Shown: positions 455 through 1,865 of the stretch, one piece after another
Layout: each line of letters begins with the position of its first letter
Numbering within the stretch: the stretch's first letter is position 1
NCBI GenBank assembly: GCA_902564295.1
Contig: CACFAO010000006.1
Coordinates: forward strand, 1-64,000
Length of the DNA: 64,000 nt
Source of the DNA: an uncultured Pelagibacteraceae bacterium
GTDB taxonomy: Bacteria; Pseudomonadota; Alphaproteobacteria; Pelagibacterales; AG-422-B15
Direction: 5' to 3'
Program-made: the position numbers and the translations under genes
Notes under the pieces: model-generated
The model's database searches: none
Told to the model about the DNA's origin: nothing
The model's input: only the letters and a program-made list of their open reading frames with translations

Positions 455-796
455 ATGGAAAATCCAGCTAGATATACAAATTACAAAGATTTTTTTCCTT
501 TCTATTTAAGGGAACACAGCAAAAAAAGCACAAGGATGCTGCATTATTTTGGAACGATTGGTTACCAAGTTCTATTTTGGTCCCTTCTGCTAACTCAAAA
601 TTACTTATTCCTGCCTTTAATCTTACTTGCAGGTTATGGTCCTGCATGGATTGGGCATTTCTTTATAGAAAAAAATAAACCCGCTACCTTTAAATATCCT
701 TTATGGTCACTCATTGGTGATCATCATATGGCTTATTTAATGCTTACAGGTAAACTTAAGAAAAAATTATCTGATGCCGGGGTATCAGCTACTTAA
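455..796 (+). CDS. DUF962/Mpo1-like membrane protein
   Basis: 113 aa; FYLREHSKKSTRMLHYFGT and GHFFIEKNKPATFKYPLWSLIGD motifs. Confidence 0.8.
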   Translation: MENPARYTNYKDFFPFYLREHSKKSTRMLHYFGTIGYQVLFWSLLLTQNYLFLPLILLAGYGPAWIGHFFIEKNKPATFKYPLWSLIGDHHMAYLMLTGKLKKKLSDAGVSAT

Positions 797-1644: not shown

Positions 1645-1729
1645 AATAAACTCCTTGATTGAAATAAGAATCCAGTAAATTATATATACTAATACAGTTT
1701 TAACCATATTTAATGAAAGGAGGTGGTCT

Positions 1730-1828
1730 ATGTCTATAGGTAGTATAGAGGAGCTTTGCTCGAGTAGTGAAATTCCATGTGATTGTAGATGTGGAAACCT
1801 CCACTTTTTGAGTGGAGCTCCGTTTTAA
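1730..1828 (+). CDS. candidate 32-aa Cys-rich peptide / structured RNA
   Basis: AAAGGAGGTGGTCT-ATG, then MSIGSIEELCSSSEIPCDCRCGNLHFLSGAPF stop; followed by an intrinsic terminator. Below the ORF-track length cutoff. Confidence 0.5.
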   Translation: MSIGSIEELCSSSEIPCDCRCGNLHFLSGAPF

Positions 1829-1835
1829 CTACATT

Positions 1836-1865
1836 AAGCCCCCATTAATTTGGGGGCTTTTTTTA
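1836..1865 (+). terminator. intrinsic terminator
   Basis: AAGCCCCC-ATTAATTT-GGGGGCTT followed by TTTTTT. Confidence 0.85.

Follow-up and report, generated by a model that had tools for sequence, protein, structure and literature searches.

Gene content and organization of the locus

The window, i.e. the whole 64-kb stretch of DNA that was analysed, belongs to contig 6 of a 1.09-Mb genome with a completeness of 79%. Its minus strand carries two overlapping genes (785–1270 and 1207–1707) encoding members of the MAPEG family (PF01124, E-values of 1.5e-14 and 4e-15) and, further along, a gene encoding a hotdog thioesterase (1863–2231). Between them, the plus strand contains a mini-ORF of 32 codons followed by a TAA stop (1730–1828), with the product MSIGSIEELCSSSEIPCDCRCGNLHFLSGAPF. 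The unit built around this mini-ORF is divergent from the MAPEG pair and convergent to the thioesterase gene, and no gene in the same direction lies downstream of it. The MAPEG pair is also adjoined by a gene for an Mpo1-like 2-hydroxy fatty acid dioxygenase (455–796, plus strand; PF06127, E-value of 7e-33). An earlier note had placed the mini-ORF next to divergent MAPEG genes, which the Pfam matches establish, and had pointed to glutathione-type chemistry, a link that comes down to adjacency.

The mini-ORF is preceded by a promoter-like element (1659–1686, plus strand) that reads TTGAAA-N16-TATATA, its spacer including an invariant AGAATC, and that was recognized in an alignment of four genera in which the TTGA, AGAATC and TATA-rich blocks all align upstream of the mini-ORF. 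This element was not listed by the consensus scanner, which demands a T at the last position, and its putative promoter role is deduced from conservation. The stop codon is followed by an intrinsic terminator, AAGCCCCCATTAATTTGGGGGCTT and then a T run (1836–1859, plus strand), found by a terminator scan that returned three terminator-like hits against 0.2 expected; both arms of its stem vary between genera. The terminator stem-loop (around window positions 1836–1859) is exactly inverted at two loci (L029 and L055, genomes G034 and G022; GCCCCCATTAACTTGGGGGC vs GCCCCCAAGTTAATGGGGGC), as if the hairpin had been flipped in place in these genomes.

A hyper-Shine-Dalgarno sequence complementary to the 16S rRNA tail

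Immediately upstream of the mini-ORF, the sequence GAAAGGAGGTGGTC (1715–1728, plus strand) pairs with 14 nucleotides of the 3' tail of the 16S rRNA. The 3' end of the 16S rRNA from the same genome is GGATCACCTCCTTTCT, and all 14 nucleotides of the hyper-Shine-Dalgarno (hyper-SD) are paired with its GAUCACCUCCUUUC segment, through 13 Watson-Crick pairs and one G-U pair, with a computed energy of -25.7 kcal/mol. For reference, the starts of 69 long ORFs of the window average -4.1 kcal/mol (sd 3.1), the next best reaching -12.4 kcal/mol. The strong SD that had been claimed for this 32-amino-acid ORF is thus present and more extreme than described. Positions 1715–1728 form the sole 14/14 site on both strands of the 64-kb window, to which the full energy scan applies; at the genome scale, uniqueness comes from a pattern search, in which AAAGGAGGTG followed by ATG was found at exactly one site per genome in the five family genomes tested. 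The same pattern was missing from most genomes of the sister family f2, the others having chance-like sites, and a search for the exact head in this sister family found none. Every member of the mini-ORF family that was found possesses AAAGGAGGTGGTC.

Distribution and conservation of the mini-ORF unit

A covariance model, alongside which a protein search was also run, retrieved the mini-ORF unit from 40 of the 53 genomes of the family, spread over four genera. The thioesterase gene was found in exactly the same 40 genomes and adjoins the unit in every one of them. Neither was found in the other 13, a joint absence best explained by contigs that these assemblies lack. A profile of the mini-ORF peptide gave no convincing match outside the family, and the head pattern searched in 385 genomes of the class returned five other matches, all of which lacked the mini-ORF pattern on inspection.

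The peptide alignment revealed conserved residues at both ends, MS..S..E and GNLHFxSGAP, the residue x of the latter being hydrophobic in all members, and a variable middle third. The start, the stop and the frame are kept in the four genera with no in-frame stop; length changes are multiples of 3 nt within the ORF and 1–3 nt in the leader and trailer, and the TAA stop is kept although the codon preceding it varies. The retention of start, stop and frame argues for translation. At the conserved residues, codon identity between members reaches 80–93%, compared with 44–66% for the adjacent MAPEG gene and 43–56% for the thioesterase. Because the mini-ORF codons are far more identical than those of its neighbours, selection acts mainly on the RNA, at the nucleotide level. 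We thus interpret the unit as an RNA that undergoes translation as well. The 32-amino-acid peptide matched no family in Pfam or NCBIfam, and neither the window locus nor the related heads found at 11 further loci matched any of the 4227 Rfam families at the gathering cut-off; in a permissive scan, the best Rfam match was sub-threshold (31.8 vs 50 bits) and covered the hairpin and terminator. The literature searched, including that on SAR11 and that on leader peptides in SAR116, held no matching system.

RNA folding and the candidate internal anti-SD

The region 1700–1866, terminator included, folds with a minimum free energy well below that of shuffled sequences (z = -6.3), and the ORF body is itself beyond shuffles (p 0.003–0.013), which bears out the hairpins and terminator previously noted. 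The RNAalifold consensus defines a conserved local hairpin at the end of the ORF (1791–1823, plus strand), made of an outer helix (1791–1795/1819–1823) and an inner stem-loop (1799–1817). In this hairpin, which every member retains, 99.2% of the cells are paired. Most stem pairs are invariant, and structural support comes from one covarying pair and two wobble-compatible ones, in which one-sided changes keep the pairing. Relatives therefore retain both the reading frame and the stems, two features whose loss would have spoken against the earlier note, with codons strongly held and covariation limited. A GGAGC motif (1750–1754, plus strand), invariant in all members, may form the 5' arm of a long-range helix with GCTCC (1817–1821). 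This GGAGC/GCUCC pairing is part of a 15-bp helix in the minimum-energy folds of genera g1 and g3, and its arms are invariant, hence without covariation signal; the minimum-energy folds of the unit are not the same between genera.

The motif ACCTCC (1797–1802, plus strand; ACCTTC in other genera) is a candidate internal anti-SD, its pairing with the SD being kept in all members by G-U pairs. It had been put forward as an exact complement of the SD, which holds letter by letter, but the pairing does not exceed that of shuffled sequences (p 0.19 in the window and 0.11–0.84 across the family). A match at chance level is expected because the SD is so purine-rich. We therefore rejected the exact pairing as proof of a switch at the window locus. 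As the SD/anti-SD duplex also lacks covariation in the window's family, a three-way switch at this locus is a hypothesis, and the proposal of a self-regulated mRNA or structured sRNA stands in outline, through RNA-level conservation, the hairpin, the promoter-like element, the terminator and retention in 40 of 40 genomes, but not in its SD/anti-SD switch.

The same head on unrelated mini-ORFs

Scanning the genome contigs with AAAGGAGGTGGTCNATGTCNA returned 56 stretches, including the window's own family, and revealed three further mini-ORF loci led by the same head in marine Alphaproteobacteria. Their ORFs have 15–17 codons and encode peptides unrelated to that of the window: MSKILDLVTFY[L/N/H]RIES, in records labelled Rhodospirillaceae, Pelagibacterales, Rickettsiales or Alphaproteobacteria, and MSNIILFVTTSYSQI and MSIILYTSPPQEMLGNL, both in SAR116. 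The shared head is partly imposed by the search pattern and is compatible either with common descent or with convergence on the 16S tail. Its occurrence in the SAR116 order is sporadic (9 of 121 sampled genomes). Where the sequence is long enough, a hairpin terminator follows each of these three mini-ORFs, with the loop ACAAAAATAT common to the MSKILDLVTFY[L/N/H]RIES and MSIILYTSPPQEMLGNL loci.

The internal anti-SD is significant in one SAR116 relative: at the MSNIILFVTTSYSQI locus, ACCACUUCC forms 9–10 bp with the SD (p 0.002–0.003), and a natural variant, ACCGCUUCC, keeps this pairing. It is borderline at the MSKILDLVTFY[L/N/H]RIES locus (p 0.06–0.08) and absent from the MSIILYTSPPQEMLGNL locus (p 0.38). 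A phage or viral origin was considered and rejected: viral contigs hold a single exact match to the head, which leads a different 13-amino-acid ORF with the rest of the unit absent, and gave no match to the ORF-end hairpin. The head was also matched in Methanofollis and Puia, apparently by chance.

Proposed function and alternative explanations

The mini-ORF unit is probably a small regulatory RNA, previously undescribed, that is translated by ribosomes. The explanation we prefer, to which we give a little less than even weight, is that of a small ribosome-loaded and self-controlled mRNA or sRNA, in which the RNA rather than the peptide is functional and ribosome engagement decides the fold. 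The unit would be a self-contained transcript of about 170 nt (roughly 1693–1865), transcribed from its own promoter-like element and ended by its own terminator, and follows a recurring marine-alphaproteobacterial design: hyper-SD, AUG-UCU, short ORF with a hairpin overlapping its end, terminator. With such an SD, 30S subunits would be captured with high efficiency, and in translating these few dozen codons the ribosome would melt the hairpin lying over the end of the ORF. Ribosome occupancy might then select between the local hairpin, the long-range GGAGC/GCUCC helix and the pairing of the internal anti-SD with the SD, so that translation of the RNA itself, its stability or its pairing with other RNAs, including any putative downstream target, would depend on ribosome engagement. 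The conserved object is the RNA, the peptide being largely free to vary between constrained blocks.

The main rival is a trans-acting sRNA, in which ACCUYCAC of the hairpin would pair with the SDs of target mRNAs while the hyper-SD would serve for self-pairing or as a decoy, translation being incidental or a second function. This reading, which we consider about half as credible as the preferred one, accounts for the free-standing organization of the unit, which has a terminator of its own and lacks a same-direction gene downstream, and for the nucleotide-level constraint on the mini-ORF; C/U-rich segments are also present at the other three mini-ORF loci. It sits less easily with the long SD ideally spaced from the AUG and with the kept frame and stop, all of which point to translation, and no Rfam family is reached at the gathering level. 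We rank a functional peptide and a cis-acting leader below it. A micropeptide of about 32 amino acids acting through its conserved ends, MSxSSIMEP and GNLHFxSGAP, would explain why these ends are near-invariant as amino acids, with an always hydrophobic residue inside the second, and why frame and stop are retained. We regard it as unlikely, given that synonymous sites are almost as frozen as the others, that the middle third is variable, and that the peptides encoded downstream of this head at the other three loci are unrelated, in addition to the lack of a Pfam or NCBIfam match.

A further reading is a leader peptide or attenuator acting in cis on a neighbouring gene. At the other three loci a same-strand gene does lie 3' of the terminator, encoding a 77-amino-acid secreted protein, a 127-amino-acid protein or a PqiA-like membrane protein, and a cis-acting leader would fit those loci too. 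At the window locus, however, an attenuator would have no target in cis, because the next gene, the thioesterase kept in 40 genomes, is convergent and the upstream genes are divergent, which makes this explanation distinctly improbable. Two others were rejected as having hardly any likelihood. Four GGA motifs, invariant in the alignment at the SD and at 1750–1752, 1793–1795 and 1814–1816, could titrate CsrA in the manner of a CsrA/RsmA sponge RNA, but none of the 13 genomes examined, which carry or neighbour the element, has a PF02599 match over the cut-off, whereas control genomes were positive. The metal- or thiol-responsive peptide suggested by the earlier note relied on the C-x6-C-x-C-x-C cluster, which is limited to the window's genus; the cysteines are absent in the three other genera (g2, g3 and g4), and most of the cluster has disappeared from a divergent g1 member, while the rest of the peptide is kept.

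Comparison with known systems

The closest parallel is the extended SD of rpsU in Bacteroidota, which typically concerns one gene per genome, and pairs with 9–13 bp of the 16S tail at -14 to -21 kcal/mol. Elsewhere in their genomes these bacteria avoid SDs, and translation of the gene is tuned by the condition of the 3' tail of the 30S subunit (McNutt et al. 2023, PMC9976891). The mini-ORF likewise has an exceptional SD that covers most of the 16S tail and is essentially found once per genome. The two are non-homologous, the mini-ORF peptide being unrelated to the ribosomal protein bS21; the mini-ORF is hosted by Alphaproteobacteria in which ordinary SDs serve the remaining genes, and its lower energy (given above) was computed with a different program than the rpsU values. 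Short ORFs with extended SDs are also known as leader-peptide uORFs or sORFs in Staphylococcus aureus, some with intrinsic terminators or overlapping sRNAs, but the characterised leader peptide acts in cis (PMC13009471), whereas no same-direction gene follows the unit of the window. In Sinorhizobium meliloti, also an alphaproteobacterium, the attenuator RNA rnTrpL and the leader peptide peTrpL are active in trans (PMC7298713); the unit differs from this mini-ORF system by its unrelated sequence and by having neither a run of amino-acid-biosynthesis codons nor a downstream operon. Minigene mRNAs, in which translation of two-codon ORFs has a regulatory effect (e.g. PMC8708949), are comparable through their very short ORFs, but the mini-ORF loci have 15–33 codons, a conserved RNA fold, their own terminator and no host operon. 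In none of these four systems did we find the sequence or the free-standing arrangement of the unit. For four further RNA motifs reported by Meyer et al. (2009, PMC2704228), other gene contexts are described.

The hosts are Alphaproteobacteria of the open ocean, and their genomes are very small. If one of their families has retained an RNA with so extreme an SD, this would open a new way to study how regulation is tied to ribosome availability in streamlined cells. It would also extend what was observed in Bacteroidota, namely that regulation may be why a single gene of a genome has an exceptional SD. Since the head recurs on unrelated mini-ORFs of other marine lineages, this idea can be tested by comparison. 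More speculatively, and with only a modest chance of being right, the window's SAR11-like family, SAR116 and a third lineage might share a hitherto unrecognized class of regulatory RNA engaged by ribosomes, with one copy per genome and an SD that matches almost all of the 16S 3' tail, whose alternative folds would report or buffer free 30S subunits and whose peptide would be irrelevant.

Hairpins and downstream genes at the other loci

A conserved hairpin is found downstream of the mini-ORF at loci L118, L119, L120, L125, L129, L147, L149, L159, L160 and L166, its stem changing while its loop, ACAAAAATAT, remains constant, and it precedes the gene for the 77-amino-acid secreted protein, which has no Pfam match. 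Because the 3' arm of this hairpin, TCTCCT, can pair in some members with the SD of that gene, AGGAGA, its sequence suggests regulation in cis by a leader in this lineage. At the MSIILYTSPPQEMLGNL locus of SAR116 (L122, L154), the PqiA-like membrane protein gene is located at +115 from the head, and the terminator loop is that of the loci with the 77-amino-acid protein.
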